Source of the DNA: Candidatus Contendibacter sp.
GTDB taxonomy: Bacteria > Pseudomonadota > Gammaproteobacteria > Competibacterales > Competibacteraceae
Assembly (NCBI GenBank): GCA_008933795.1
Contig: WBUJ01000024.1
Coordinates: forward strand, 1-35,534
Direction: 5' to 3'
DNA length: 35,534 bases
The position numbers and the translations under genes were made by a program. This document shows positions 1,688 through 32,308 of this stretch, piece after piece; within the stretch, counting starts at the first letter, position 1; each line of letters begins with the position of its first letter. The notes beneath the pieces are model-generated. The model was not told where the DNA came from. It did not search any database and saw only the letters and a list, made by a program, of their open reading frames with translations.

Positions 1688-1700
1688 CGCAACGGTTCCT

Positions 1701-1729
1701 TTATCAAACGGCTGTGGTCCCGATATTAT
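1701..1729 (+). promoter_or_regulatory. Possible sigma-70 promoter for the restriction-modification operon
   Basis: TTATCA (1701-1706) and TATTAT (1724-1729) are separated by 17 bases in the short divergent gap between tenA and the methyltransferase gene. They match 4 of 6 and 5 of 6 consensus positions. The methyltransferase ATG follows at 1761 with AAGGAG at 1748-1753. This is a match by eye only. Confidence 0.4.
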
Positions 1730-1760
1730 GCCGTGCATAGTGTCGCCAAGGAGAACGCCG

Positions 1761-4700: not shown

Positions 4701-4853
4701 GTGGACGAATCGGCCTTCGCCGCGCTGTCCGGCACCGTGTCGCTGCCCTTCGCCGCCGGTCCAAACCGCCGGGTGGCGGTCAAGGTTATCGACCCGCGCG
4801 GGAACGAAGTCATGCGGGTGTTTCGGTTGGACGGGGCGGGAGGGCGATACTGA
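1761..4853 (+). CDS. Beta-class site-specific DNA methyltransferase (Mod-like subunit of a Type III-like R-M system)
   Basis: A 1030-residue protein starting at the ATG that follows AAGGAG with ideal spacing. Motif IV is YIDPPYGIKF (DPPY at residues 197-200) and the S-adenosylmethionine motif I is LVLDPTCGSGTTAY (residues 452-460), so the order is IV before I, the beta class of N6-adenine or N4-cytosine methyltransferases. The region between them, roughly residues 289-435, should hold the target recognition domain and is visibly AT-rich, unlike both flanks. The C-terminal half (from about residue 560) has no motif I can name and is likely the part that binds the Res partner. Residues about 520-560 are encoded by a palindromic repeat (see 3317-3439). 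The gene is followed, with a TGATG overlap, by two small genes and then the helicase-nuclease, which supports a modification role in one operon. Specificity cannot be read from the sequence. Confidence 0.88.
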   Translation: MAPRVRKTVASPSDPPEPVADYRFDAARKNIPPAGLAAQGKLAEPRRIRYDYDPHRPPLLRFDASGAADRVPELLETARRRALTEEETRWLAEALRDRQPWLEWAGKREQRSFEVEPVALHIHERIAAQAIVKVAARQDVQRDLFADPQLSYREAVQFYQHDIDWANRMILGDSLQVMASLARREELAGRVQMIYIDPPYGIKFASNFQPEVGKRDVKDKESDLTREPEMVKAYRDTWTLGVHSYLAYLRDRLMVAKELLADSGSIFLQISDENLHRVRCVMDEVFGAENFVAQIFFQTTSGRQEEHIDRVGNYLLWYARDAQHTKTYKLFIPKESSEEFSAGDLQSQGIRSTGSFEVNLFGGIFFPQTSNHWKVTAEGMRRIANAERVLQMRNVIRFKRLASDFPVKALLDVWTDVSGGAGLDKVYVVQTSSKIIERCLLMTTDPGDLVLDPTCGSGTTAYVAEQWGRRWITIDTSRVALALARQRLITAKFDYYQLRPANEADLRRNPNGAWLASPDSPPRLRGGGATRRGGLNADAGAADPNHPGADAPPLLEKEGNRKFTLDCETVPHITLKSIAQNAALDPIFAKHQPILEEKLAALNAALAGCENLRPKLAAKLAIKEKTEGKKAITEADRRRWLLPPAHRDPKAKLTVDARFAGWYEWEAPFDADPDWPETLQTALVAYRAAWRAKMDEINAAIAANADNEELVDKPRVHRNVVRVSGPFTVEAVMPAEQNLHDDSPIEGVMGELEGFDGRRGEEVANAEAFLDRMIRLLAQDGVRFPNNKTATFTRLSPIGEEFLHAEGEWSNGDGQPRQVAVTIGPEFGPVTAWQVENALTQAYRRRVYQDLVVAGFSFDAAAQALVQDDPNPQVRCHLAHIRPDVNMGGLLKDTPDAQLFTVFGSPRTRLDQTPDGLFTVTLEGVDIYNPVDNAILATQVDKVAAWFVDSDYDGRTFCITQAFFPDKSAWDKLARALKTVVDESAFAALSGTVSLPFAAGPNRRVAVKVIDPRGNEVMRVFRLDGAGGRY
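3317..3439. repeat. Compound palindromic element lying in frame inside the methyltransferase gene
   Basis: This 123-base stretch (41 codons) is made of two inverted hairpin units. The left unit runs from TTCCCCCCCTCGATTG through GAGGGGGGG and TGGCGC to GGGGGGGTT; the right unit runs from AACCACCCC through GCGCCACCCC to CTCCTTGAAAAGGAGGGGAA and is an imperfect reverse complement of the left. It is translated in frame as a Gly/Arg/Ala/Pro-rich segment (PPRLRGGGATRRGG, then PGADAPPLLEKEG) with no stop. The composition is that of intergenic palindromic repeats rather than of a folded protein. An insertion is inferred; no uninterrupted homologue can be compared here. Confidence 0.7.
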
Positions 4854-5104
4854 TGCCGGTGATTTTCCGTTACAAGAGCTTCCGCTTTTTCTTCTTCTCC
4901 AACGAAGGAACACCGCCGGAACCGCCTCATGTTCACGTTCGTCAGGGCGGCGCCAGCGCCAAGTTCTGGTTACGGCCCGGAATCAGGCTGGCCGAAAGCT
5001 ATGGTTTTGATGCCCCCACTTTGCGGGAATTGGCCGGCATTGTTGAACAGCAACGCGAATTGATCGAGAGAACCTGGAATGAATACTTTAGCCATCTCGC
5101 TTAG
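4853..5104 (+). CDS. DUF4160 domain protein
   Basis: An 83-residue protein whose ATG overlaps the methyltransferase stop (TGATG). The N-terminus MPVIFRYKSFRFFFFSNEG followed by PPEPPHVHVRQGGASAKFWL is the DUF4160 pattern, with a conserved HVHV segment. The function of DUF4160 is unknown. It forms a tight pair with the next gene (26-base overlap), a DUF2442 protein; from memory these two families often occur side by side, and small overlapping pairs of this sort suggest a toxin-antitoxin-like or regulatory module, but nothing in the sequence proves it. Its place between the modification and restriction genes is unusual and is treated as a finding. Confidence 0.85.
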   Translation: MPVIFRYKSFRFFFFSNEGTPPEPPHVHVRQGGASAKFWLRPGIRLAESYGFDAPTLRELAGIVEQQRELIERTWNEYFSHLA

Positions 5105-5333
5105 GTTTGACGAAGATACGATGTGGGTCCAGCTAGCCGACGGGCGCATTATTGGCGTACCTCTGGCCTGGTTTCCCCGCCTGCTGCACGCTTCCCCCGA
5201 ACAGCGGCTCCGGTATGAAATCAGCGGCGGCGGCCAGGGATTGCACTGGGATGGGCTGGACGAGGACATTTCCGTGGTGGGACTGGTCGCCGGACGGGGC
5301 GATGTGACCCGACCCATGGCTGCGGCGGCGTAA
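5079..5333 (+). CDS. DUF2442 domain protein
   Basis: An 84-residue protein that starts inside the 3' end of the DUF4160 gene. It shows the DUF2442 features: an acidic, beta-rich N-terminal half (RFDEDTMWVQLADGRIIGVPLAWFPRL) and the typical end LHWDGLDEDISVVGLVAGRG. The fold is small and its role unknown. Because the start lies in the upstream gene, translation of the two is probably coupled, which fits two partners made in fixed ratio. The gene ends 15 bases before the Res-like gene, so one transcript from the methyltransferase promoter probably covers all four genes. Confidence 0.85.
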   Translation: MNTLAISLRFDEDTMWVQLADGRIIGVPLAWFPRLLHASPEQRLRYEISGGGQGLHWDGLDEDISVVGLVAGRGDVTRPMAAAA

Positions 5334-5348
5334 GCATCCCACAACGAC

Positions 5349-8300
5349 ATGATCCATAAACACGTAACTGCATCCACACAAACCGAAATCCCCATCCAGC
5401 CGGTCGCCAGACCCATCCTGTGCAGCCCGTTCGCTGAACCCGACCGGCACTGGGTCTACGACACGCAAACCGGCGAAGCCCGCCAGGAAGCGGGCCGCCG
5501 CCCGGCGTCGTACTGGTACAAAACCCAGCGCACCGGCTCGGCGCAACTGGCGCTGCTGGCCGAGGAGGAACGCGACGATCTGCCGCTGGTGAACCTGCTG
5601 CGCGAGGACGTGAAACACTGGCGCGAGGCGAACTACCGCAACGCTACGCCCGTCACCCGGCAACTGCTGTCGCACTGGTCCCGCGCCGACCGGCCTCGCC
5701 GCTTGTTCTTCTGCCAGCGCGAAGCGGTGGAAACGGTCGTCTACCTCAACGAAATTCTCGCCGCCGGCAAGAACCCCGGCTTCAAGCCCAAACTCTCGCC
5801 GGACGATTTCCGGGCGTTAACCGAAGGCGGCAAGCCCTCGTTCGTGCGGGAGCGGGAACCGAAGGTATTCCCGACGCTGGTGGACATACCGAACGAAGCC
5901 GGCCTGCTTCCACTGCGGCGCTACGGCTGCAAGATGGCCACCGGCAGCGGCAAAACCGTGGTCATGGCGATGCTGATCGCCTGGGCGTTTTGCAACCGGG
6001 GCCGCGCGCCCGGCGACGACCGCTTTCCCCACGCCGCGCTGGTGGTCTGTCCCAATCTGACCATCCACGAACGCTTGCAGGTGTTGCGCACCGACCGCGA
6101 AGACAGCTACTACCAGACTTTCGACTTGGTGCCCGCGCCGCTCGCGCCGGAATTGAAGAAGGGCAGGGTGCTGATCGGCAACTGGCACAAGTTCGCACCA
6201 GAGGGCCCGCATGTCGAAAACGGCAAGAGCTACGCGGTGGTGGACAAGGGCGAGGAGAGCGCCGACGCCTTCGCCCGGCGGGTGCTGGGCGATCTGTACG
6301 ACCGCGCGCCGCTCATGGTGCTCAACGACGAAGCGCACCACGCCTATCGCCCGAAATTGCTGGCGGGAACCGAGAAACTGTCCGCCGAGGAAAAGGCCGA
6401 GCGCGAGGAAGCGACCGTCTGGATCGCCGGGCTGGATCGCATCAACCAAGCGTGCGGCATTCGGTTCGTGGTCGATCTGTCCGCCACGCCGTTCTATCTG
6501 GCCGGCAGCGGCACTATCGAAGGCTCGCCTTTTCCCTGGCTGGCAGCCGATTTCGGGCTGGTGGACGCCATCGAATCGGGCATCGTCAAAATTCCCCGGC
6601 TGCCGGTTTCCGACACCACTGGTCGGCCGGAACCGAAATTCTTCCGGCTATGGCAAGCCATCGCCGCCGGTCTTCAGCCGGGCGAAAAGCTGCCGGGCGG
6701 CAAGCCCAAACCCGACGTGGTGTGGCGCGAAGCGCAAGACGCGCTGACCACGCTGGCAAGCCAATGGAAGGAACGCTTCGAGTACCTGCAAGCGGCCAAG
6801 CCGGGACAGGAGCACATTCCCCCGGTTCTGATCGTCGTCGCCGACAACACCGCCATCGCCGAGTTGTTCTACCGGAACATCTCCGGCGAGGAAACGGTGG
6901 AGATCATCAACGAGGATGACGACGGGGACGAGGAAACCGAGAAGAAGAAAGCCAAAACCCGAACGGTATTTGGAACTGGCCAACTGTTCCCCGAACTGTT
7001 CGCCAACCGCGAGGGTTTTCGCCCGACGCTGCGCATCGATTCCAAACTGCTGGCCGAAGCCGAGTCGGAAGACGCCAAAACCTCCCGCAAGGAAGCGGCC
7101 GAAACGCTGCGGCGGATCGTGGACACCGTCGGCAAGCCGGGCCAGCCGGGCGAACAGGTGCGCTGCGTGGTGTCGGTGCAAATGCTGACGGAAGGCTGGG
7201 ACGCCAGCAACGTCACCCACATTCTGGGCTTGCGCGCCTTTGGCAGCCAGTTGCTCTGCGAGCAAGTGGTTGGCCGTGGCTTGCGACGGATGGATTACGC
7301 GGTCGATCCGGCCACCGGCTTGCTGACCGAGGAGTACGTGGACATTTACGGCGTGCCGTTTTCAGTGATTCCGTTCCGGGGCCGCTCCACGTCCGCCGCC
7401 GCGCCGGAAGACAAGCCGAAGAACCACGTCCACGCCGACGATGCGCGCCGGCATTACGAAATCCGCTTCCCCATCGTGGAAGGCTACGCCTTCGCGCTGC
7501 GCAAGAACGCGATCAGGGCCGATGTCGCGGCCATCGAAAAACTGGTGCTGGCGCCCGACGCGACGCCCACGGCGGTTTTCGTCAAACCCCAGGTCGGCTA
7601 TCAACTCGGCAATCCGTCCGTCGCCGGCGGGTTCACCACTGCGACCCAGGATCGGGAAGCCTATTACGCCAGCACCCACCCGCAAACCATCCGGTTCGAA
7701 ATCGCCCGGCTGGTGACCGCCGCGCTGACCGAAGGCATCGAAGGCGCGACGCCGAAACTCAAGCTACAAGGCCGCCATCAACTGTTTCCGCAGGTCTATC
7801 GCATCGTGGACGACTACATCGCCCGCAAGGTGGATTTCCGGGGCTGTCATCCTTGCGAACTGGGCTTGGAACTCTACGTGCGCCGGATCGTCGAGCGGTT
7901 GACCGCCGCCATCGAACCGGACGCGGCCAGCGGCGAACCGCCGTTGCTGCCCCGGCTGAATCGCTACCAACCCATCGGTTCCACCGCCGGGGTGGATTTC
8001 AAGACCACCCGCCCGTGTGTGCCCACGATCCGTAGCCACATCAACCAGGTGGTCGCCGACACCGATTCCTGGGAACAGGCGGCGGTGTTCCGGCTGGAAC
8101 AGGCGCGGGATATCGTCGCGTTCTACGCCCGCAACGACCATCTGGAACTGTCTATCCCCTACGATTATCTCGGCGTCGCCCATGCCTATTTTCCCGATTT
8201 CGCCGTGCGGCTGACCGACGGGGTGACGCTGCTGCTGGAAATCAAGGGCGAGGAACGCGAACGGGACCGGGCCAAGCATCAGGCGGCGCGGCGCTGGGTC

Positions 8301-8426
8301 AGCGCGGCGAATTACTGGGGTCAACTTGGACGATGGGCGTTTCACGCCTGCAAGGACCCGCAGCGAGTGATCGACGAGATTCGGGTTTTCTCGCACCGCT
8401 CGACCGCGCCCGCCGCCAGCCCTTGA
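5349..8426 (+). CDS. Type III Res-like restriction helicase-nuclease (BPTD_3080-like family)
   Basis: A 1025-residue superfamily 2 translocase fused to a nuclease. The N-terminus (RPILCSPFAEPDRHW, then EAGRRPASYWY) resembles the proteins named BPTD_3080 family restriction endonuclease. Helicase motifs are Walker A ATGSGKT (residues 197-203), the DEAH box in LNDEAHH (327-330), SATPF (378-382), a TEGWD motif V and QVVGRGLRR motif VI. Near the C-terminus PDF (D950) and EIK (E964, K966) make a PD-(D/E)xK nuclease site. With the upstream methyltransferase this forms a complete Type III-like system in which the enzyme is expected to translocate from, and cut near, unmethylated sites. All catalytic motifs look intact. 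The start has no strong ribosome site and may depend on coupling to the DUF2442 gene 15 bases upstream. Confidence 0.88.
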   Translation: MIHKHVTASTQTEIPIQPVARPILCSPFAEPDRHWVYDTQTGEARQEAGRRPASYWYKTQRTGSAQLALLAEEERDDLPLVNLLREDVKHWREANYRNATPVTRQLLSHWSRADRPRRLFFCQREAVETVVYLNEILAAGKNPGFKPKLSPDDFRALTEGGKPSFVREREPKVFPTLVDIPNEAGLLPLRRYGCKMATGSGKTVVMAMLIAWAFCNRGRAPGDDRFPHAALVVCPNLTIHERLQVLRTDREDSYYQTFDLVPAPLAPELKKGRVLIGNWHKFAPEGPHVENGKSYAVVDKGEESADAFARRVLGDLYDRAPLMVLNDEAHHAYRPKLLAGTEKLSAEEKAEREEATVWIAGLDRINQACGIRFVVDLSATPFYLAGSGTIEGSPFPWLAADFGLVDAIESGIVKIPRLPVSDTTGRPEPKFFRLWQAIAAGLQPGEKLPGGKPKPDVVWREAQDALTTLASQWKERFEYLQAAKPGQEHIPPVLIVVADNTAIAELFYRNISGEETVEIINEDDDGDEETEKKKAKTRTVFGTGQLFPELFANREGFRPTLRIDSKLLAEAESEDAKTSRKEAAETLRRIVDTVGKPGQPGEQVRCVVSVQMLTEGWDASNVTHILGLRAFGSQLLCEQVVGRGLRRMDYAVDPATGLLTEEYVDIYGVPFSVIPFRGRSTSAAAPEDKPKNHVHADDARRHYEIRFPIVEGYAFALRKNAIRADVAAIEKLVLAPDATPTAVFVKPQVGYQLGNPSVAGGFTTATQDREAYYASTHPQTIRFEIARLVTAALTEGIEGATPKLKLQGRHQLFPQVYRIVDDYIARKVDFRGCHPCELGLELYVRRIVERLTAAIEPDAASGEPPLLPRLNRYQPIGSTAGVDFKTTRPCVPTIRSHINQVVADTDSWEQAAVFRLEQARDIVAFYARNDHLELSIPYDYLGVAHAYFPDFAVRLTDGVTLLLEIKGEERERDRAKHQAARRWVSAANYWGQLGRWAFHACKDPQRVIDEIRVFSHRSTAPAASP

Positions 8427-8434
8427 GGTTGGTT

Positions 8435-10474
8435 TCAGCCCGCCGGTGGCGGCAACGGGCAATGCTCGCCCTTCAACCGTTCCAGCCGCTGCCAAGCTTC
8501 CAGCACGCAGGCCACCGACCAAGCCTGCGCCGGCGCTCCGCGCGGCTGATGCGGCGGGGCGCCATCGAAAATCTCGCTGACCGTGCCCAGGCCGGCATCC
8601 AGCAGATGATCGCGGATCGGCTCCAGCCAGGCTTGTGCCTCCGCCGCGTGGCCGTGAACCCGATATTCCGCCAGGGCGTAATGGCCCAGCAGCCAGGCCC
8701 AGACCGGCCCCTGATGGTAGCCGCCGTCCCGTTCCCGGACATCGCCGAGGTAATAGGGCCGGAACTCGGCGTGGCGCGGCGCCAGCGAGCGCAGGCCGTA
8801 GGAGGTCAGCAGTTCCCGTCCGCACACTCGCGTCACCCCTTGCCGCGCGGCGTGATCGAGCGGGCTGTAATGCAGGCTGACGGCAAAAATCTGGTTCGGC
8901 CGGATGCGGGCGTCGTCGCCGTCGGGACCGTCCAGCACGTCGAACAACCCCTCGCCGTCCGGCTTGACGAAGCGGCGAAAACCCTGCCGAGCCTGGTCGG
9001 CCAGATCGTCGTAGAAAGTCGGCGACCGACCCAACTGGCGGGCGAATCCGGCCACGCTCCGAAGCGCGTTATACCAGAGCGCGTTGATTTCCACCGGCTT
9101 GCCGACGCGCGGCGTCACCACCCAATCGCCGATCTTGGCGTCCATCCAGGTCAGTTGCGTCCCCGGTTCGCCAGCGCGCAACAGACCGTCGGCCTCGTCC
9201 AGCCCAATGCCGTAACGGGTTCCAGTAGCGTGCCAAGCGATGATTTCCTGTAACACCGGGAAAGCCGTAGCCAAGGTTTCAGCATCGGCGCTGGCCTCCA
9301 GGTAGGCTCGCCACGCCTCGACATACCACAGCGCGGCGTCGGTGGTGTTGTAGGCCAGCGGTTCGCCGGCGGCGGGAAACAGGTTCGGCAACATGCCCCG
9401 GTCGGCGAAGCGGGCGAAGGTCAGCAGGATGCGGCGGGCGATCTCGCTCCGGCCGGTGGCCAGCGTCAGCCCCGGCAACGCGATCATGGTGTCGCGGCCC
9501 CAGTCGCCGAACCACGGGTAGCCGGCGATCACCGATTCGCCATCTGGCATATCGGGCAACGGCCGGCCGAACAGGAAGCTGTCGGCCGCCAGCGCCAGTT
9601 GCCGCACCCAGTCTGGCGCACCGCGCAATTCCGGTACGCGCGCCTCGGCCTGGGCCAGCAACTCGACTTCCCGGCCCAAAAAGCGCCGTAGCGCCGTCTC
9701 GAAATCCAGGGAAACCTCTTCATGCAGGCTGGCGACCACGCCGGTCCAGACGCCGGGGCGCAAGGTCAGCATCGCCTCGCCGAGGCAGAGATGGTGGTCG
9801 CGGTGCGCTAAGCCGCGCTCGTGTTCCACCGGCAGGTCGAAATTCTCGAACCAGCTCGCTCCGTCCACGATGACGCCGCCCACCGCCCAGAATCGCAGGG
9901 TAAAATCCGGGGTCCGAACCCGCCGCCGCGCCGGATCGGGCGCTTCCAGCACCGGCTGGAACTCGTCCATCCGGGTGCGGCTGTGATGATCGCGGCCGTT
10001 CACCAGCAAACGGACTCGCAAGCGCAAATCGCGGCCGGCGTCGACCGAGGCCAGCCGCCAAGCGACGTAGGTGGTATTCGCTCCGGGTTCCAGCCAGATG
10101 CGTTGCTCCAGCACGATGTTTCCCACCGCGAAGCGCCAGACCGGCATCCGCCCCTCCAACCGGAACGATTCGAGGTGGACATACCCCGACGGATGGACCA
10201 CGCCGCCGGCCCAGCGGTTGCCGAACAGCGGAATCTCCCGGTCGCCGTCCACCAGGGTAGCGTCGGCCTTGGCGAATGCGAGCCGGCGATCCAGCGGCGG
10301 CCGTACCGGCGCGATCAACAGCCCGTGATAGCGCCGGGTCAGGGTGCCGGCCACGGTGCCGGCGGCGTAACCGCCCAGTCCGTTCGCCAGCCACCATTCG
10401 CGCCGTTCCGCCTGCGCCAGATCGCCGCACAGCGCCCGGCCGCAGCGAATGAAATCGGGTAACTCGCCCGTCAT
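8435..10474 (-). CDS. Glycogen debranching enzyme (amylo-alpha-1,6-glucosidase family)
   Basis: A 679-residue protein with an N-terminal glycogen debranching domain (WWLANGLGGYAAGTVAGTLTRRYHGLLIAP) and a C-terminal (alpha/alpha)6 GDE-C domain marked by GYPWFGDWGRDTMIALPG, NTTDAALWYVEAW, QLTWMDAK and EINALWYNALR. Enzymes of this bacterial/archaeal type remove alpha-1,6 branches from glycogen in the cytoplasm. Length and motifs fit an intact enzyme. The gene converges with the restriction gene, the stops being only 8 bases apart. No other glycogen gene is in the window, so its pathway partners must be elsewhere. A role in storage-polymer turnover would fit a glycogen-accumulating lineage but this is inference. 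Confidence 0.9.
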   Translation of the reverse strand: MTGELPDFIRCGRALCGDLAQAERREWWLANGLGGYAAGTVAGTLTRRYHGLLIAPVRPPLDRRLAFAKADATLVDGDREIPLFGNRWAGGVVHPSGYVHLESFRLEGRMPVWRFAVGNIVLEQRIWLEPGANTTYVAWRLASVDAGRDLRLRVRLLVNGRDHHSRTRMDEFQPVLEAPDPARRRVRTPDFTLRFWAVGGVIVDGASWFENFDLPVEHERGLAHRDHHLCLGEAMLTLRPGVWTGVVASLHEEVSLDFETALRRFLGREVELLAQAEARVPELRGAPDWVRQLALAADSFLFGRPLPDMPDGESVIAGYPWFGDWGRDTMIALPGLTLATGRSEIARRILLTFARFADRGMLPNLFPAAGEPLAYNTTDAALWYVEAWRAYLEASADAETLATAFPVLQEIIAWHATGTRYGIGLDEADGLLRAGEPGTQLTWMDAKIGDWVVTPRVGKPVEINALWYNALRSVAGFARQLGRSPTFYDDLADQARQGFRRFVKPDGEGLFDVLDGPDGDDARIRPNQIFAVSLHYSPLDHAARQGVTRVCGRELLTSYGLRSLAPRHAEFRPYYLGDVRERDGGYHQGPVWAWLLGHYALAEYRVHGHAAEAQAWLEPIRDHLLDAGLGTVSEIFDGAPPHQPRGAPAQAWSVACVLEAWQRLERLKGEHCPLPPPAG

Positions 10475-13935: not shown

Positions 13936-15231
13936 ATGAACATCCTGATCGTCGGCGGCGGTGGCCGCGAACACGCCCTGGCCTGGAAGGTCGCGCAATC
14001 CAGCCGGGTGAAACACGTCTACGTCGCACCGGGCAACGCTGGCACGGCGCGCGAACCCAAGGTCACCAACATCGCCATCACGGCGGATGATCCACCCGAC
14101 CTGCTCAAGTTCGCTCAAGGCCATCACGTGGATCTGACGATCATCGGGCCAGAAGTGCCGCTGGTGCTGGGCATCACTGACCGGTTCGCCAGCGCCGGCC
14201 TGCGCTGTTTCGGGCCGAGCAAAGCGGCGGCGCAACTGGAAGGCTCCAAGGCTTTCGCCAAGGATTTCCTGGCCCGTCACCACCTTCCCACCGCTCGCTA
14301 CCAGAGTTTCACGGATCCTGACGCAGCGGAAGCCTATATTCGCGAGATGGGCGCTCCCGTGGTGGTCAAGGCCGATGGGCTGGCGGCAGGCAAGGGCGTG
14401 ATTCTGGCCCAGAGCGAGGAAGAAGCCATCGCCGCCGCCCGGGGAATGCTGAGCGGCGCGGATTTCGGCAAGGCCGGCCAGCGGGTGGTGGTGGAAGAGT
14501 TTCTGCACGGCGAGGAGGCCAGCTTCATCGTCATGACCGATGGCGAGCATATCCTGCCGTTCGCGTCCTCACAGGATCACAAGGCCCGCGACAACGGCGA
14601 CCGTGGCCCCAACACGGGCGGCATGGGCGCCTATTCGCCTGCGCCGGTGATCACGCCGGAACTGCATGACCGCATTATGGCCGAGATCATCGAGCCGACG
14701 GTGCGCGGCATGGCGGCGGAAGGCAGCCGCTACGTCGGCTTTCTCTACGCCGGGGTGATGATTACCGCCGATGGTCCCAAGGTGCTGGAATACAACTGCC
14801 GGCTGGGCGATCCTGAAACTCAGCCCCTGATCATGCGCCTGCGCTCCGATCTGGTGGAATTGTGCAAGGCGGCGCTGGACGGACGGTTGCATGAGGTCCA
14901 GGCGGACTGGGACCCGCGCGCTGCGCTGGGGGTGGTGATGACCGCTGGCGGCTATCCGGGCCGCTACCGGCAGGGCGATGTCATCGCGGGCCTGCCGCCG
15001 CCCGACGAGGAACTGGGCGACGACGTGAAACTGTTCCACGCCGGAACGCAGGAAACCAAAGAGGGCCATATCGTCACCCACGGCGGGCGGGTGCTGTGCG
15101 CCACCGCGCTGGGCAGCACGGTCGCGGAGGCGCAGAATCTGGCCTATAACCTCGTCAAACGAGTGCGCTGGGATGGTGTCCATTACCGTACCGACATCGG
15201 TTATCGGGCCATCGCGCGGGAACGGAATTAA
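13936..15231 (+). CDS. purD: Phosphoribosylamine–glycine ligase (GAR synthetase)
   Basis: A 431-residue ATP-grasp enzyme that joins phosphoribosylamine and glycine in step two of purine synthesis. The N-terminus MNILIVGGGGREHALAWK, then IIGPEVPLVLGI, KADGLAAGKGV, EEFLHGEEASFIVMTDG, the GGMGAYSPAP loop and EYNCRLGDPETQ are all family signatures for substrate and ATP binding. The length equals that of the E. coli enzyme to within a few residues. It follows purH in the same direction; the start is directly after the copy-B repeat, which supplies a weak GAGGG ribosome site. Confidence 0.97.
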   Translation: MNILIVGGGGREHALAWKVAQSSRVKHVYVAPGNAGTAREPKVTNIAITADDPPDLLKFAQGHHVDLTIIGPEVPLVLGITDRFASAGLRCFGPSKAAAQLEGSKAFAKDFLARHHLPTARYQSFTDPDAAEAYIREMGAPVVVKADGLAAGKGVILAQSEEEAIAAARGMLSGADFGKAGQRVVVEEFLHGEEASFIVMTDGEHILPFASSQDHKARDNGDRGPNTGGMGAYSPAPVITPELHDRIMAEIIEPTVRGMAAEGSRYVGFLYAGVMITADGPKVLEYNCRLGDPETQPLIMRLRSDLVELCKAALDGRLHEVQADWDPRAALGVVMTAGGYPGRYRQGDVIAGLPPPDEELGDDVKLFHAGTQETKEGHIVTHGGRVLCATALGSTVAEAQNLAYNLVKRVRWDGVHYRTDIGYRAIARERN

Positions 15232-26064: not shown

Positions 26065-26374
26065 GGCGGGATTCCAGCATTGGGTTTCGTGAAGGCTCTT
26101 CGATTTTTTCTGGACTTGATCTTTTGGAGCGACTCCAGCCTGCCGAGCCGTTTGGAAGGTGTCTACAGAGATTTAAAAATCAATTAGTTAGGATCGTAGC
26201 CAGAACTTAGTCTGACTGGCTCCACAAGAACCGACGAAGAACCTGGCTTTTCGCAGAAAAATCCCAATGATTTTCATGCGATTCAAACGGATAATGCGAC
26301 TTTTCGCCGTTCCGACGATCTGGTGACGCCAGACAATGTGATGCTGCTGTTCGGCGTCTCTCTCGCATTTGACT
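26065..26374. other. Intergenic stretch without a gene, left end of the integron region
   Basis: No supported coding region lies here; an open frame on the minus strand (26187-26421) has no recognisable family and overlaps the TRIC gene. The stretch holds two small inverted repeats, AGCCAG...CTGGCT (26198-26221) and TCTGG-TGACG-CCAGA near 26315-26330, and a GTTAGGA box near 26187. The TRIC cassette would need an attC here, but the ACATAAC box expected from its start was not found. The sequence may be a decayed attC or unrelated flank. Confidence 0.5.
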
Positions 26375-26974
26375 CTAGGATTTGCGGAAGACGGGTAGGT
26401 GCAGGTCCCACCGGATGGCAAGCAACCGCACTGCCACCACCACGATCATTCCGGCCCCAAACGCCGGTGCACGTGGCATCCCGAGCGCGTGCAAAGCCAG
26501 GTACACAGCGACTCCCACGATGGCAGCCGTCGCATAGATCTCCCGCCGCAGGATGAGCGGTACCTGCGCCGTGATGACGTCTCTCAAGATGCCTCCGGTA
26601 ACGCCAGTCATCGTGCCCATCAGCACCACGATGAGCGGTGGGCACTGCGCCGCTTCCGCCAATTGGGCCCCAGAAAGCGCGAAAAGCGCCAGTCCCAGCG
26701 TATCGGCCACGAGGAGTGTGGCACTCGGCGGTGGCCATACCCGTACATACGCGACCGTCAACATAGCGGATGTGATGATGACGACGAGGTACCAGACATC
26801 GGTGACCCAGAAAATCGGGTGGCGGTCCAAGAGGAGATCGCGAAGGGTACCTCCTCCGATGGCTGTAATCGCCGCGACCACGATGACCCCGAGGAGGTCC
26901 AGATCCCGATCGCGTGCTGCAAGTACGCCGCTCGCGGCAAACACTGCCACGCCTGCAAGGTCAATGTAATACAA
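26375..26974 (-). CDS. TRIC/UPF0126 family membrane protein (possible fourth cassette)
   Basis: A 199-residue, strongly hydrophobic protein made of two UPF0126 repeats of about three helices each, plus a final helix. The duplicated signature is visible as AIGGGTLRDLLLDRHPIFWV and GVTGGILRDVITAQVPLIL. Members form trimeric intracellular cation (TRIC) channels or related transporters such as YicG in the inner membrane. The start is a TTG at 26972-26974, the only start in frame near the family N-terminus (MYYIDLAGVAVFAASG), with AGGA some twelve bases ahead. It lies directly after the third attC-like site and reads the same way as the other cassettes, but no attC closes it on the left, so cassette status is likely but unproven. 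Confidence 0.85.
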   Translation of the reverse strand: MYYIDLAGVAVFAASGVLAARDRDLDLLGVIVVAAITAIGGGTLRDLLLDRHPIFWVTDVWYLVVIITSAMLTVAYVRVWPPPSATLLVADTLGLALFALSGAQLAEAAQCPPLIVVLMGTMTGVTGGILRDVITAQVPLILRREIYATAAIVGVAVYLALHALGMPRAPAFGAGMIVVVAVRLLAIRWDLHLPVFRKS

Positions 26975-27007
26975 GAGTACGCGCCATCCTACATTGCCGA
27001 ACGTCGG

Positions 27008-27066
27008 ACATAACCGGCGCTGCGCGGCTTCATCGCGCAGCGTCCGTGTTGATGGATGGGTTGGGC
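27008..27066 (-). repeat. attC site 3 (between VOC and TRIC cassettes)
   Basis: Read on the minus strand, this 59-base site has an R'' box GCCCAAC (27066-27060) and an R' box GTTATGT (27014-27008). The R'' box is the exact reverse complement of the GTTGGGC box that begins the VOC cassette at 27510-27504. The interior folds as a 9-bp perfect hairpin, CGCTGCGCG / CGCGCAGCG. The spacers are asymmetric: about 13 unpaired bases after R'' and almost none before R', so the site may be partly decayed. Confidence 0.65.
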
Positions 27067-27099
27067 GTCATACGACACCGGCTGTGGTATGGCAGCCGA

Positions 27100-27483
27100 C
27101 TATGTTTCATAGGACGACACTTCGATGAGGTTGCTATCGGGGTCTCGAAAGTAAACGGACGTTATCGGGCCAAGGGCACCGGTGCGCGGAACTGGCCCTT
27201 CTTCGACGTTTATGCCGCACTTGCGTAAATGATCAATGACTGAGTGTGGCGCCTCAGCCGTAACGAAGCACAAGTCGGCTGAACCCGGAACGGGATGGTT
27301 CGCGTGAGGAACAAGAGGCGCATTTGCTGGATGCAGATTGATCTTCGATTGCCCGAAGACAAGTGCTCTCCGCCCTGAGCCAAACGTAACAGGCTCCATG
27401 CCAAGAACCGTTTGATAGAAGGAAATCGTCGCATCCATATCTTGCACGGTCAGCACGAAATGATCGAGGCGCTCAATTTGCAC
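27100..27483 (-). CDS. VOC (glyoxalase/dioxygenase fold) family protein, third cassette
   Basis: A 127-residue single-domain protein with two beta-alpha-beta-beta-beta modules of the vicinal oxygen chelate fold: IERLDHFVLTVQDMDATISFYQTVLGM at the N-terminus and VYFRDPDSNLIEVSSY at the C-terminus. H8 and the glutamate of LIEV are the usual metal ligands. Substrate unknown; relatives include glyoxalase-like and fosfomycin-resistance-like proteins, but no specific match can be claimed. The start is GTG with GGAG about seven bases ahead. It lies alone between attC 2 and attC 3 in a 496-base unit (27014-27509), a standard single-gene cassette size. Confidence 0.88.
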   Translation of the reverse strand: MQIERLDHFVLTVQDMDATISFYQTVLGMEPVTFGSGRRALVFGQSKINLHPANAPLVPHANHPVPGSADLCFVTAEAPHSVIDHLRKCGINVEEGPVPRTGALGPITSVYFRDPDSNLIEVSSYET

Positions 27484-27503
27484 GGGGACTCCAGGGGTTT
27501 GAC

Positions 27504-27585
27504 GCCCAACGTACCAATAACCGGACCGTAGACTGCGGAGCGCAGCGCAGCAGTTTACGGGTCCGAGTTTATTGGATTGTTATGC
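27504..27585 (-). repeat. attC site 2 (between the ParA cassette and the VOC cassette)
   Basis: On the minus strand this 82-base site runs from R'' GCATAAC (27585-27579) to R' GTTGGGC (27510-27504). The inner arms CCAATAA and TTATTGG pair, followed by further paired blocks around a GC-rich centre. The R'' box is the exact complement of GTTATGC, which starts the ParA cassette at 28857-28851, as expected for a cassette that closes into a circle. The stop codon of the upstream gene (27580-27582) lies within R'', a common trait of cassettes. Confidence 0.85.
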
Positions 27586-27975
27586 GCTTTTGTCATTGCC
27601 TGAAAACACATCGCCCCGAGTTGATGATGCACCAACCTTTTCTGTAATTAAGGACACAAGCTTTTCCTTGGTTTTCCACGTATAGCTTTTTCTTGTCTTG
27701 TCTAGACCATACTTTTTTATAACTGCGATAAGTTGGGCTACATCTAGTTTTTCCAGTTCTTCAACCAGTCTTTCGATTCCCTCAGCAGCGGCGATTGCAA
27801 TTGGATTTATATGCACATCAACTTTTCTTCTGGTTGTCCCCTGAGTAATATCTTCCGAGCCCAGTCTTACCAATTCGGCTAACAATGCCTTTAATTCGCT
27901 GTCTTTTTTAGACGCAGCAATCATTTCTCTTAAGATCGCCTTAGTCTCAGCAATATCAAGTTTAGACATATTCAT
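27580..27975 (-). CDS. Small protein of unknown function, partner of the ParA-like ATPase
   Basis: A 131-residue protein that I do not recognise. The start ATG has AGGAGATAC directly ahead and lies within the last codons of the ParA gene (14-base overlap), so the two are co-translated. The first 45 residues are helical and charged (DIAETKAILREMIAASKKDSELKALLAELVRLG), the middle is strand-like (RRKVDVHINPIAIA), and the C-terminal third (LDVAQLIAVIKKYGLDKTRK, then WKTKEKLVSLITEKV) is basic and looks like a small helical nucleic-acid or protein-binding module. ParA-type ATPases usually work with a small DNA-binding or cargo-adaptor partner; this protein fits that place, but no ParB motif is seen. 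AT-rich composition. Confidence 0.8.
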   Translation of the reverse strand: MNMSKLDIAETKAILREMIAASKKDSELKALLAELVRLGSEDITQGTTRRKVDVHINPIAIAAAEGIERLVEELEKLDVAQLIAVIKKYGLDKTRKSYTWKTKEKLVSLITEKVGASSTRGDVFSGNDKSA

Positions 27976-28822
27976 GTATCTCCTCTACTAATCGCATGAA
28001 TACTCGATCTAGACCTTGATATCCATACTTTTGCTTCAGTGTATTGGGCGTGTCATTATAATCTGCCGCTTCTTCTGCCTTTCCAGTCAAAGGAATTCTT
28101 GTCTTGAATATTCTCGGAAATGCGGCATCATTAGCATGTTTACTTTCTAGCGTTTCAATTGTTGTATTGTGAAGAGTTAAGTTGCTTCTGTATTTTGTTA
28201 TCACGATTCCAAGCGGTGTGATTCTTAAGTTTTCTTTTCGAGCAAACTGCGATACTTTGTTTGTGATCTGTGGAATGCCATAAGTAGACAAAATGTCCGG
28301 TATGGTTGGGATAATATAGTAGTCGCTTATGAAAATTCCGTTCAACGTGACTGTTCCAAGATTTGGAGGACAATCTACAAGAACAAAATCATAATCCGAC
28401 AATAGATGATTAATAGACTTCTTTAGGATTTCGGTGGGCTTAACTGTGTAGTTTGATGTGGTTGCAATTATCGCCATTTTATCTTGTATTTCGATTAGCC
28501 CAAGACTTGATGGGAGCAGATCAAGACCTTTTATTCCTCCGCTAACGTTTGAAACGTTTTTTACTATTGCTTTTTCTGGTACAAAAATGTTGGTGTCCAA
28601 TTGCGCATCTAGGAACAACTGCTTGAGAGTAAGTCCGTTCTTATCTCTTTCTTCCCATTCATCTTGATGAATCAATGAAACCGTTACGTTAGTTTGAGGA
28701 TCCAGGTCGATTACGAGTACCTTGTATTTGTATTCATAAGCCAGTATGTCTGCCAAAGCGAGGCAAGTAGTCGTTTTTCCAACTCCGCCTTTGAGGTTGA
28801 TCAGACTTATAACCGTTGCCAT
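27962..28822 (-). CDS. ParA/MinD-family ATPase (second cassette)
   Basis: A 286-residue protein with the deviant Walker A KGGVGKTT (LINLKGGVGKTTTCLALADIL), switch I KVLVIDLDPQTNVT and Walker B/switch region FVLVDCPPNLGTVTLNGI. These define the ParA group of dimerising ATPases that position plasmids, chromosomes or protein cargo. It has no N-terminal helix-turn-helix, so it is like chromosomal Soj or type Ib plasmid ParA. An AGGAG site lies well placed before the ATG. It shares a 1347-base cassette (27510-28856) with its small partner. A full partition system would need a centromere-like repeat array, and none is visible; its purpose on an integron is unknown. Strongly AT-rich compared with the chromosome. 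Confidence 0.92.
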   Translation of the reverse strand: MATVISLINLKGGVGKTTTCLALADILAYEYKYKVLVIDLDPQTNVTVSLIHQDEWEERDKNGLTLKQLFLDAQLDTNIFVPEKAIVKNVSNVSGGIKGLDLLPSSLGLIEIQDKMAIIATTSNYTVKPTEILKKSINHLLSDYDFVLVDCPPNLGTVTLNGIFISDYYIIPTIPDILSTYGIPQITNKVSQFARKENLRITPLGIVITKYRSNLTLHNTTIETLESKHANDAAFPRIFKTRIPLTGKAEEAADYNDTPNTLKQKYGYQGLDRVFMRLVEEIHEYV

Positions 28823-28850
28823 TTCACGATCTCCTTTGGTTCGCTTTCAC

Positions 28851-28908
28851 GCATAACGCCAACCATCAGCGGCGCGCGTTCAGCGTCCGCTGCATGGTTT
28901 TGTTAGCT
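28851..28908 (-). repeat. attC site 1 (between the TIR–ATPase cassette and the ParA cassette)
   Basis: This 58-base site is a textbook attC. On the minus strand R'' is AGCTAAC (28908-28902), R' is GTTATGC (28857-28851), and the arms ACCATGCAGCGG and CCGCTGATGGT pair with one extra base on one side, the kind of extrahelical base used for strand choice by IntI. R'' is the exact complement of GTTAGCT at 30468-30462, the start of the same cassette. The stop codon of the TIR gene (28903-28905) is inside R''. Confidence 0.92.
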
Positions 28909-30423
28909 ATTCTCTATTTTTTCGATGAGGCTGTTAGCCAAATCAGAGACAGAGCAGCGCCGCAAATCAATATGTCCAACATTTTGTGAAAGCCCTACAA
29001 TGTGAACATCGTCCATTAATACTGGCAAAAGATATATTTCGGTTCGTTTCCCCCTAGCCTCTTTTCCGATTTCCAATTCAAATTTGGTCCAGTCTTTTTC
29101 TGGATAATGCTTTGAAAGGAAGATAACCATATATTGAGCGTCATTCGAATAAACATCTGCAAGCTTCAACCTTAAGTCCGCGCCCCATAACTGGTGTTGA
29201 ATGTCAAAGTCGTAAAAAACTGTGTACCCGGCATTGTTGAGCGCATCTTTCAGCTCTTCAACAACAGGCCGATCCTCTCCCGCGAAGGAAACTGCTACAT
29301 CCCATGGGAAACCAGTCCTTCTCAATCGTATAGCCTTTCCTATTTCATCCATGCCAATCAGAGTCAGATAGAGTCCAAATGATGGATCCTCAATTGAAAT
29401 GCTATCCGAATCCTTGTTGAGATAGATAGCATCGTCGAGACCTCGCTCTTCAATGACTTCTGGCAAGTATTTTAGGCAATTGTGGAAAGATGTCGTCTTT
29501 TTTGCACGCTCTTTTGCATCGTCAATTGGGTTTAGTAGCCTCTGTTGTATTTCTTGTAGCTGTATCTCGCTTTTACCGATGATTGCGATACTTTTTATGA
29601 TATCAAAATAAGTATTGTGTACAGACCTTGCCTGCTGCTTTCCCTTGCATAGGCCGACCAATTTGTTATGGTACTTTCCTCGATAGATCCTAAGTACACC
29701 ATCCTTTATTTGGTCCATTCCACAATCTATTACTGCTCTATCTGAGACCGTCTTTAAAATCTTATTTCTGATACACGCGACCCGGCAGATGACCTGAATG
29801 GCCGAAGGGATACCATTAGACGCTGCGATAAACTGTTTCTTGGCTTGCGAGGAAAATTCAATATTTAGATGTCTCTCTCCTAACGATATTACTTCTGCAC
29901 AAAAATTGTCGTCCTGCTTTTTCATTTCATACACATCGTTCCGAATACCTAGCTCAGCGTCAACATCCAGCATTTTCTTGCTTGAACTAGCGATCCCGAT
30001 AATGAAGAAACGTATTCCAATTTCGTGCCAGCGTTTCAGTCGGTAGCCGATATCTTGTCGCACGCTTTCTTTGAGATGATGAAAATCATCCAGAACGACA
30101 ATGCCAGCAACCGCTAGATATTCTGTGATCTCGTCCATTGACTCTGCGATTGAAAATTCTTTGGCAAAAATACTTTCTATCTTTTCATGGGACGCATAGT
30201 CTCTCCCAGAAAGCCAGTGGGTATCACCTGGTCCGCGACCTGATTCATCTAATGCTTTTCGAGCCAAAGTGGTCTTTCCGCAACCGGACGGGCCGCTAAG
30301 GGTAATGTGCTTTCCACTTGTGAGAATGGATCCAACGATGTCCGAAAATTCACGTGGCTCAACGAAGGTCAAGACCGGAATTTCACTTTCATTGAATACG
30401 TCAGAGATATTGTAACCCTGCAT
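28903..30423 (-). CDS. ATPase with C-terminal TIR domain (first cassette; probable defence protein)
   Basis: A 506-residue protein. Residues about 20-220 form an AAA/STAND-type ATPase: Walker A GPSGCGKT (44-51), Walker B IVVLDDFHHL (108-117) and a sensor-like FFIIGIASS (139-147). A helical, winged-helix-like middle follows (about 225-365). Residues about 374-490 form a TIR domain: WDVAVSFAGEDRPVVEELKDAL, GYTVFYD, LWGADLRLKLADVY, MVIFLSKHY and WTKFELEIGKE, where E449 stands at the position of the NADase glutamate. Bacterial TIR domains often degrade NAD+ or make signalling nucleotides after phage infection; an ATPase sensor joined to a TIR effector is a known plan, although the TIR is more often N-terminal. 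AAGGA lies before the ATG. It is the first cassette after attI, the best-expressed place in an integron. Defence function is inferred. Confidence 0.9.
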   Translation of the reverse strand: MQGYNISDVFNESEIPVLTFVEPREFSDIVGSILTSGKHITLSGPSGCGKTTLARKALDESGRGPGDTHWLSGRDYASHEKIESIFAKEFSIAESMDEITEYLAVAGIVVLDDFHHLKESVRQDIGYRLKRWHEIGIRFFIIGIASSSKKMLDVDAELGIRNDVYEMKKQDDNFCAEVISLGERHLNIEFSSQAKKQFIAASNGIPSAIQVICRVACIRNKILKTVSDRAVIDCGMDQIKDGVLRIYRGKYHNKLVGLCKGKQQARSVHNTYFDIIKSIAIIGKSEIQLQEIQQRLLNPIDDAKERAKKTTSFHNCLKYLPEVIEERGLDDAIYLNKDSDSISIEDPSFGLYLTLIGMDEIGKAIRLRRTGFPWDVAVSFAGEDRPVVEELKDALNNAGYTVFYDFDIQHQLWGADLRLKLADVYSNDAQYMVIFLSKHYPEKDWTKFELEIGKEARGKRTEIYLLPVLMDDVHIVGLSQNVGHIDLRRCSVSDLANSLIEKIENS

Positions 30424-30461
30424 CTAATATTATCCTTGAAAGAAACGTCTGAATGCGCTGT

Positions 30462-30565
30462 AGCTAACATAAAGTAGACCGCCTAAACGACGCCTTATCT
30501 TACGTCAATCTTGACGTATAATCACGGTAAGCCTTGATCAACTTGTTGTTAAACCTAACAAGTTG
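30462..30565 (-). other. Presumed attI site and cassette junction
   Basis: The first cassette begins at the GTTAGCT box read on the minus strand at 30468-30462, the exact complement of the R'' box of its own attC. The attI should extend rightward from this box toward intI. A second consensus box, GTTAGGT (30559-30553, minus), lies 91 bases away within an inverted repeat AACTTGTT...AACAAGTT (30540-30547 / 30557-30564) and could be an accessory integrase site or an alternative crossover point. The right limit given here is approximate. Confidence 0.6.
30501..30518. repeat. Perfect inverted repeat next to the cassette junction
   Basis: TACGTCAA-TC-TTGACGTA is an 8-bp perfect inverted repeat and overlaps TATAAT (30517-30522) on the plus strand. 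It may bind a regulator or be part of attI. No LexA-type CTGT-N8-ACAG box was found between the junction and intI. Confidence 0.45.
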
Positions 30566-30576
30566 TATTCTGACAA
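30548..30576 (-). promoter_or_regulatory. Possible cassette promoter (Pc-like)
   Basis: On the minus strand TTGTCA (30576-30571) and TTTAAC (30553-30548) are separated by 17 bases and read toward the cassettes. The matches are 5 of 6 and 4 of 6. The position between intI and the first cassette fits a Pc of a chromosomal integron, but the -10 is weak and overlaps the AACTTGTT inverted repeat. Confidence 0.35.
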
Positions 30577-30657
30577 CAAATCCAATTAGCTTATCGAAAG
30601 CGTCACCTCTGGCCTCGGCAAGGCACGATTTTCCGTCACGAAAACGAGCCGCCCGCC

Positions 30658-31650
30658 ATGAGAAACATTAAAGTGGCAGCGGTTATGAATGTCAAGCCCA
30701 AGTTGCTCGATCAGGTTCGCGCAAAAATCCGTATCAAGCACTACAGCATTCGCACCGAGTAAGCCTACGTGGATTGGATTCGGCGCTACATCCTGTTTCA
30801 CGGCAAGCGGCACCCTCAGGAGATGGGTAAACCGGAGGTCGAGCAGTTTCTGTCTCACCTAGCCGTGGAGCGCAATGTAGCCGCTTCCACCCAGAATCAG
30901 GCGCTGAGCGCTATCCTGTTCTTGTACAAGGAGGTGCTGGAAAAGGACATCGACTGGCTGGACAACATGGAGCGGGCCAAGCGTCCCGCCCGCCTGCCAG
31001 TCGTCCTTACCGCCGCCGAGGTGCGCGCCGTGCTGGCCCACCTGGAAGGCCGCCCCCGCCTCATGGCCAACCTCCTCTACGGCGCTGGCTTGCGGCTGAT
31101 GGAGTGTGTCCGCCTCCGGGTGAAAGACCTTGATTTTGAATACCGGCAAATTACCGTGCGGGATGGCAAGGGCCAGAAAGACCGGTTAACCATGCTACCG
31201 GACGCCTTGGTGGGACCGCTGCAAACCCACTTGGCCGATGTCAAGATTCTGCACGAACAGGATTTACGGGCAGGATTCGGCGATGTCTACCTGCCGTTCG
31301 CCCTGGCCCGAAAATATCCCAATGCCGGCCGGGAGTGGGGCTGGCAATACGTGTTTCCCGCCTCGCAACGCTCCATCGACCCGCGCTCCAACATCGAACG
31401 CCGCCATCACCTTGATGAGCAAACCTTGCAACGGGCGTTTAAGAATGCGGTGCGCGCCAGTGGCGTCGCCAAGCCCGCTTCCTGTCATTCGCTGCGCCAC
31501 AGTTTCGCCACGCATCTGCTGATGTCGGGCTACGACATCCGCACCGTGCAGGAATTGCTGGGCCACAAGGATGTCAGCACCACCATGATCTACACTCACG
31601 TCCTCAATCGCGGCGGCAAGGGCGTGGTCAGCCCGCTCGATGCCATCTGA
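30658..31650 (+). pseudogene. intI: Integron integrase IntI, interrupted by an in-frame stop
   Basis: From the ATG at 30658 the frame encodes 34 residues ending HYSIRTE, then a TAA (30760-30762), then continues in the same frame as [18 protein letters not shown] to the end. Integron integrases normally read TEQAYVDWI here, so a single CAA-to-TAA change explains it. The rest is complete: arginine in [11 protein letters not shown] (codon 31093), the lysine loop [11 protein letters not shown], the integron-specific insert [39 protein letters not shown] and the tyrosine in MIYTHV (codon 31591). A protein might restart at GTG 30769 or ATG 30823 but would lack the first core-binding helix. The gene reads away from the cassettes, as in known integrons. 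Probably recently inactivated. Confidence 0.88.
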
Positions 31651-31669
31651 TCAAACCCGTGACGTTCCA

Positions 31670-32308
31670 ATGGATTCCAATCAAATTCACCAGCTTTTCG
31701 CCCGCCTGCGAGCCGCTCGCCCCCAGCCGACCACCGAACTGCGCTATCTCGGCCCGTTCGAGTTGCTGATCGCGGTCATCCTGTCGGCGCAAGCCACCGA
31801 TAAAAAGGTCAACGAAGCCACCGAACGGCTGTTCGCGGTCGCCAATACCCCGCAGGCCATCCTGGAGCTGGGCGAGACGGGGTTGAAGGACTACATCAAG
31901 ACCATCGGCCTGTACAACACCAAGGCCGCCAACCTCCGCAAAACTTGTACCCTGTTGCTGGAACGACACGGCGGCGAGGTGCCGCGCGACCGCGAAGCCT
32001 TGGAAGCCTTGCCGGGCGTGGGCCGCAAGACCGCCAACGTCATCCTCAACACCGCCTTCGGCGAACCGACGATTGCTGTCGATACGCATATCTTCCGGGT
32101 CGCCAACCGCACCGGACTAGCGCCGGGCCAGACCGTGCGGGAGGTGGAAGAGGGTTTGCTGGCGGCGACGCCGGAGGCATTCCGGCAGGATGCTCACCAC
32201 TGGCTGATCCTGCACGGCCGTTATGTCTGCACCGCCCGCAAGCCGCGCTGTCCGGACTGCCCGATCCACGATCTTTGCGAGTATCCGGACAAGAGCGAGG
32301 TGAACTGA
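31670..32308 (+). CDS. nth: Endonuclease III
   Basis: A 212-residue DNA glycosylase/AP lyase that removes oxidised pyrimidines. The catalytic lysine K120 is in LPGVGRKTANV and the aspartate D138 in AVDTHIFRV. The 4Fe-4S cysteines C187, C194, C197 and C203 have the exact E. coli numbering and spacing. The ATG at 31670 is chosen because it gives the E. coli-like start; an ATG ten codons upstream would overlap the intI end. No strong ribosome site is visible before either. The gene sits 19 bases after intI and overlaps the next start (TGATG). It is the right chromosomal flank of the integron. Confidence 0.96.
   Translation: MDSNQIHQLFARLRAARPQPTTELRYLGPFELLIAVILSAQATDKKVNEATERLFAVANTPQAILELGETGLKDYIKTIGLYNTKAANLRKTCTLLLERHGGEVPRDREALEALPGVGRKTANVILNTAFGEPTIAVDTHIFRVANRTGLAPGQTVREVEEGLLAATPEAFRQDAHHWLILHGRYVCTARKPRCPDCPIHDLCEYPDKSEVN

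Follow-up and report, generated by a model that had tools for sequence, protein, structure and literature searches.

Evidence for a sedentary chromosomal integron beside nth in Candidatus Contendibacter, with three complete cassettes and a probably inactive integrase

The contig WBUJ01000024.1 of Candidatus Contendibacter sp. (assembly GCA_008933795.1, family Competibacteraceae), whose positions 1 to 35,534 make up the stretch analysed here (the window), very probably carries a sedentary chromosomal integron beside nth, the gene for endonuclease III. The element comprises three complete cassettes, a likely truncated fourth, and an integron integrase gene, intI, which is interrupted by a stop at codon 35 and is likely dead (Table 1).

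The cassette boundaries are marked by pairs of seven-base boxes. All three pairs named in an initial annotation of this DNA were found on the minus strand, with each cassette start being the exact reverse complement of the R'' box of the attC site that ends the same cassette: GTTAGCT (30468–30462) and AGCTAAC (28908–28902) for cassette 1, GTTATGC (28857–28851) and GCATAAC (27585–27579) for cassette 2, and GTTGGGC (27510–27504) and GCCCAAC (27066–27060) for cassette 3. These three boundaries hold, but the count was probably too low, as there is evidence for a fourth pair: the start GTTCGGC at the end of attC3 (27002–26996) has an exact partner, GCCGAAC, at 26355–26349, located 20 nt past the stop of the last open reading frame (ORF). 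In order-1 resampled sequence, GCCGAAC arose by chance at a rate of 0.013 in the 275 nt after the last ORF and 0.0026 in 60 nt. With this pair included, starts and R'' boxes match in four of four cases in their true order, and only one of the 24 end-to-start assignments gives four matches. The matched boxes support the earlier proposal that the array was built by insertion of cassettes. The same rule is kept in the array of a genome of the same genus (G007, locus L119), where, using 10 of the 11 minus-strand attC sites, eight of nine consecutive pairs matched and the ninth was off by two bases.

The attC sites were also identified by covariance. A strict motif rule applied to the DNA upstream of intI in 37 arrays beside other intI genes yielded 63 sites on the expected strand and none on the opposite strand, with at least one site in 27 of the 37 arrays. 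We built a covariance model from 38 aligned sites of at most 74 bases from other loci, leaving out the window sites, and ran it over the whole window with filters off. The sites attC1 to attC3 were the top three of 25 matches, all on the minus strand and at the junctions given above, with E-values, from the best match (attC3) through attC1 to attC2, of 6.6e-10, 3.4e-8 and 1.4e-4; the next match reached 11.7 bits (E = 0.53). Orientation was uniform, with all three sites each ending a cassette. The initial annotation had proposed such scores as a check that might show none of the three to be an attC; all three scored as attC. Although the attC consensus (RYYYAAC/GTTRRRY) is not fully matched by the attC1 boxes or by one of the attC2 boxes, and loose motif scans are noisy, it is extremely improbable that the sites are chance hairpins among ordinary chromosomal genes: we rejected this explanation on the covariance-model scores, and the matched boxes, the attI junction and the different load of a relative (see below) also stand against it. 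No Rfam model matched in the window at gathering scores.

Table 1. Features of the integron and its surroundings, in window coordinates.
Feature	Coordinates	Strand	Evidence
Dispersed repeat, 32 bp	26213..26244	.	Flank matches in the window genome (G000)
IS630-type transposase gene, 105-bp inner fragment, abutting cassette 4	26244..26348	+	
Cassette 4: membrane-protein gene, attC down to R'' box	26349..27001	-	GTTCGGC / GCCGAAC pair
Membrane protein, 199 aa, Pfam Gly_transporter, two matched stretches	26375..26974	-	PF03458, 148.8 bits
attC3	26996..27066	-	Covariance model, 50.3 bits, highest in window
Cassette 3: VOC-fold gene and attC3	27002..27509	-	GTTGGGC / GCCCAAC pair
VOC (glyoxalase superfamily) protein, 127 aa	27100..27483	-	PF00903, 49.3 bits
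attC2	27504..27585	-	Covariance model, 27.3 bits
Cassette 2: ParA gene, partner gene and attC2	27510..28856	-	GTTATGC / GCATAAC pair
ParA partner, 131 aa, 14-base overlap with ParA gene	27580..27975	-	No Pfam family
ParA-type ATPase, 286 aa	27962..28822	-	PF13614, 141.5 bits; matches solved ParA/Soj chains
attC1	28851..28908	-	Covariance model, 42.9 bits
Cassette 1: TIR-AAA gene and attC1	28857..30467	-	GTTAGCT / AGCTAAC pair
TIR-AAA protein, 506 aa, AAA+ ATPase then C-terminal TIR	28903..30423	-	PF00004, PF13676
attI region and platform leader	30469..30660	-	Comparison with G007 and G026
intI, integron integrase, interrupted	30658..31650	+	TIGR02249, 462.5 bits (cut-off 265)
nth, endonuclease III gene, anchored platform side	31640..32308	+	TIGR01083, 272.5 bits

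The attI site was located separately from the box evidence by the point at which homology to other integrons ends. The window aligns with G007 and with a genome of another genus in the family (G026, locus L120) from position 30466 onwards, a point within the GTT that opens cassette 1, and on the cassette side it is unlike both. From the matched boxes and this loss of homology, cassettes would have entered as circles at attI through the integrase. The first cassettes of G007 (L119, about 8976–9004) and G026 (L120, about 14050–14080) open with a common short palindrome, GTTCGTC...GACGAAC, at attI, and the G026 array contains four copies of a short repeat (at 4569, 7349, 8786 and 13882) beside attC-like boxes.

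At the other end of the array, the covariance model found no attC at the end of cassette 4, where at most the R'' box remains, and this cassette is likely truncated. The earlier description of the platform as complete therefore does not stand, given the last attC and the in-frame stop in intI. Between the last cassette and prlC lie the IS630-type fragment and the 32-bp repeat. Copies of the fragment occur at 84% identity on contig C7 of the window genome (G000), at 82% on G007:C55 (101 bp) and at 75% on G026:C1, the last of which matches the IS630 model NF033545; 12 of the 13 other matches to the distal flank in the window genome fall within the 26213–26244 repeat, and more occur in relatives. 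We infer that the array lost its original distal end in a rearrangement that joined it to prlC; such an event would leave the IS630-type fragment at the junction and would trap cassette 4. A misassembled contig at this junction is quite unlikely. It would account for a junction that falls in repeats and for the different neighbour of prlC in G007, but that neighbour, a gene that is pilB-like in sequence, lies in the window genome on another contig, C308, where different genes precede it; the connection is thus disrupted at both of its ends.

The integron was initially placed between prlC and nth, which is true of this contig, but the two sides differ in relatives. The nth gene was present in 37 of the 39 family genomes searched, and among 30 nth loci examined, intI lies directly upstream of nth in five, from three genera: those of the window genome, G004, G007, G022 and G012 (the last counted although a contig end cuts its intI). 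The G001 locus holds a weak 21-codon intI remnant (E = 0.023), and tblastn found no intI upstream of nth in the other 24 of the 30 loci. In G001 and G002, alignments to window DNA cover about 66 and 30 bases, respectively, of the 3' end of intI, a pattern compatible with platform loss in both. On the prlC side, the 9–12 kb upstream of prlC in G007 and G004 showed neither intI nor attC, and in G007 prlC adjoins the pilB-like gene. By these comparisons, the nth side is the anchor of the platform.

Cassette content is not shared with these loci. A tblastn search (limit 1e-8) matched none of the five cassette proteins in 21 other integron, prlC or nth loci, several of which, the G007 array included, are cut by contig ends; nor did any of the 21 reproduce the gene order of the window in the absence of attC sites, an arrangement that the initial annotation had named as evidence against an integron. 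The G007 array has at least 10 attC sites and, in the part on that contig, no cassette protein of the window, so that its content there differs despite an intI that is 98% identical.

The stop in intI is a TAA at 30760–30762. The remainder of the frame is open from a GTG at 30769 for 293 aa, and this part gives the profile score listed in Table 1, whereas the frame of the G007 orthologue is open throughout. Polarising the differences by G026 assigned nine synonymous and three non-synonymous changes (the stop included) to the window branch and ten synonymous and two non-synonymous changes to the G007 branch, with six changes not polarised. Because the frame is otherwise intact and the branch changes are mostly synonymous, the stop appears recent, and intI was probably under constraint until recently. 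The N-terminal domain of integrases has a DNA-binding role, and since the part before the stop belongs to this conserved domain, the window integrase is likely dead.

A still active integron, relying on either a shorter integrase initiated at GTG 30769 or translation through the stop, is very unlikely in our judgement. The 293-aa frame does match positions 24–314 of the 315 in the integrase profile, and non-synonymous changes on the window branch are few. However, relatives conserve the segment upstream of the stop, which falls in the N-terminal SAM-like domain; the shortened product would enter the SAM-like profile only at position 24 of 85; and no ribosome site was seen by eye before the GTG. 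We therefore favour inactivation of intI by the early stop, after which the array is predicted to be frozen unless a second integrase acts in trans.

The integrase gene appears to have a history of its own. In a comparison of the window with G007, 11 of 167 fourfold sites of intI differ, whereas the counts for nth and prlC are 28 of 107 (Fisher p = 1.1e-5 against intI) and 79 of 317 (p = 2.8e-7 against intI); where intI gives way to nth, identity drops from about 97% to 83%. As intI is far less diverged than both genes and identity falls at its edge, the intI–attI segment would have been exchanged recently between species. The intI of G004 (L123 4227–5204) looks like a mosaic gene: its protein is 66% identical overall to that of the window, while its last 37 codons encode the same protein in near-identical DNA. 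Fourfold differences from the window are 45 of 84 in the body of this gene and 2 of 19 in its last 37 codons (p = 0.0007), the latter being no different from nth (22 of 107; p = 0.53).

A second integron is present in the same genome. On contig C314 (L121 7904–9364), an integron integrase is open over 486 aa with attC sites on the expected side, and is about 50% identical to the window integrase; an N-terminal extension of about 170 aa precedes its integrase domains. Contig C308 (L213 13769–16836) has three further strong attC sites with cassette-like ORFs about 10 kb from the pilB-like gene, and by eye the 160-aa cassette ORFs of C308 and C314 are alike. Genome-wide, with 150 of 6,162 candidates scored, there were 23 attC matches at E ≤ 1, two of them in the window. 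As this second integrase is open, cassettes could still move in trans. Maintenance or reshuffling of the array by the C314 integrase is the main competitor to a fully frozen array, and we regard it as possible, if doubtful: attC1 and attC3 resemble C314 sites at 81% and 91%, and the similar cassette ORFs of C314 and C308 point the same way, but the two integrases share only about half of their residues, and attI sites are usually integrase-specific.

The cassettes carry no resistance genes by the families searched, and the load first described, a TIR–ATPase, a ParA pair, a VOC protein and a membrane protein, was borne out by Pfam matches, apart from the ParA partner, which has no Pfam family. 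In cassette 1, the TIR domain of the TIR-AAA protein scores 61.3 bits (PF13676). Across 33 aligned TIR-AAA sequences, the window's included, the Walker motifs and the TIR residues W445 and E449 (the latter presumably the catalytic glutamate) are invariant, and PDC-S59 and PDC-S66, two PADLOC candidate families, match every sequence of the set. The structure model of the protein (mean pLDDT 85.4, weaker over a stretch of the TIR part) resembles ORC/Cdc6 and clamp-loader AAA+ folds, with TM-scores by query length of 0.31 to 0.45 among the matches listed, and its matches among solved structures include the nicotinamide adenine dinucleotide (NAD) hydrolase AbTIR.

Relatives of this protein are scattered. 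A protein search (5.8 billion) gave 270 TIR-AAA matches at E ≤ 0.001, the window's own included, among 7,999 scored candidates, and most of the 120 matches listed are on contigs shorter than 10 kb. Scoring the best few candidates per genome, we found no full-length match outside the window genome in 369 genomes of the class or, at a limit of 1e-60, in 398 of the phylum (the window genome is counted in both); five partial matches in the class cover the TIR or the ATPase part alone. Viral contigs gave no relatives of the TIR-AAA protein or of the 131-aa ParA partner. Eight plasmid records carry TIR-AAA relatives, all below 60% identity and five over at least 80% of the length. One on a Pantoea plasmid (25% identity) has a CBASS phospholipase and more TIR genes as neighbours, one on an Acetobacter plasmid sits among integrases and MazF, and one on a Gloeothece plasmid is near another TIR gene. 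The TIR-AAA protein is predicted to be an NAD-consuming, infection-sensing phage-defence protein, in which the ATPase would sense infection and the TIR domain deplete NAD.

In G007, the first cassette position (L119 7029–8757) holds two genes that form a restriction-modification unit, one for a DNA methylase and one that matches a type II restriction enzyme model of PADLOC (254.9 bits). This locus and the window suggested that first cassettes are generally defence genes, an idea that we rejected because only one of ten other first-position ORFs matched PADLOC (nine from a set of 27 arrays, chosen for short distance to the first attC, and one from L121). Elsewhere in the window, the interval 1653–8426 contains a pair of long ORFs, one matching a type III methylase (PADLOC, 548 bits) and the other, at a weak level, a type III restriction subunit.

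In cassette 2, a ParA ATPase is followed directly downstream by a small partner gene, a ParABS-like arrangement, and the pair is predicted to position or partition DNA. The 131-aa partner gave 11 matches in the protein search and was found in one of the 369 class genomes, its own; its structure model (mean pLDDT 74.2) matched no solved fold at E ≤ 0.001. Homologues of the ParA protein at about 48% identity occur on four plasmid records (limit 1e-40), two of them from Methylocystis. Plain tblastn of plasmids gave no partner match, though a profile found distant relatives behind ParA homologues: on three of these plasmids, one each from Methylocystis, Caballeronia and Rhizobium, the next ORF after the ParA homologue is remotely similar to the partner (31.8–37.2 bits). 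Genes for multiubiquitin, E2-like, ThiF-like and Fic proteins, and then for type IV secretion, are found close to the pair on one Methylocystis plasmid (L220 1–5923). The VOC protein of cassette 3 falls far below the cut-offs of all Fos-type resistance models in NCBIfam. A bolder proposal, that loss of the integrase has fixed the AAA-TIR protein at the first cassette position as a new solitary phage defence and that the ParA–partner pair is an undescribed two-gene mobile module for defence or DNA positioning, carried by cassettes and plasmids, is speculative and rather unlikely.

Several points weigh against the overall interpretation of a sedentary integron with a dead integrase. The fourth attC rests on seven bases, with a chance of about 0.3 to 1% by our estimate; attC2 is absent from the 23 genome-wide matches; and a looser motif scan, while failing to detect attC3, called numerous false sites in the window. 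At attI, G007 and G026 are alike on the cassette side, so the two comparisons are not fully independent, and a consensus scan of 30400–30800 found no sigma-70-like Pc promoter. Some integrase function could survive through restart at GTG 30769 or read-through, or if the stop is an assembly error, and adjacency of intI and nth is the minority state among the nth loci, even with the window counted. The defence and partition roles are predicted from families and neighbours only, and first position in an array does not in itself imply defence.

The element is ordinary in kind; what is new is its specific cassette load and its nth anchor. A literature search for an nth-linked integron found no report and returned mostly DNA-repair papers. 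The closest parallel is the ilvD integrons of Xanthomonas, for which the accessible text of PMC12444791 describes, as in the window, an ancestral anchor, with intI fixed by a housekeeping gene, and dynamic cassette loads. According to that text, stops, frameshifts or deletions have inactivated many Xanthomonas intI genes, and recombination has apparently replaced the X. arboricola intI beside a neighbour that is conserved, with 97.1% identity in ilvD against 68.2% in intI. The window differs in its anchor, in its family, in having only three or four cassettes and in a distal end broken by an IS630-type remnant; moreover, an integron is reported there in nearly every Xanthomonas genome, whereas intI adjoins nth in five of 30 loci here.

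Inactive integrases are common. In the available portion of a 2008 survey (PMC2426708), nearly one third of intI genes are pseudogenes and about a fifth of integron-bearing bacteria have more than one intI. The window genome shares both features, a pseudogene intI and more than one intI; unlike the cases in that portion of the survey, the window gene has an intact, 98%-identical orthologue, which suggests a recent stop. Integron cassettes with anti-phage activity are established, as set out in the accessible text of a review (PMC12409362), and cassette 1 is predicted to be a further defence gene in this form; the word TIR is absent from the text of that review. TIR cassette proteins in plant-microbiome integrons are read as host-immune effectors in the available part of PMC11089894, whereas the AAA fusion and the one relative beside CBASS suggest phage defence here.

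The window would add, besides Xanthomonas ilvD, a further case of an integron tied to one housekeeping gene, in which the integrase gene itself may have been exchanged between species and then lost again. The window and G007, with an interrupted and an intact integrase, form a pair that can show the effect of integrase loss on an array. Two cassettes have testable predicted functions, defence by the TIR-AAA protein and a ParA–partner module with plasmid relatives.

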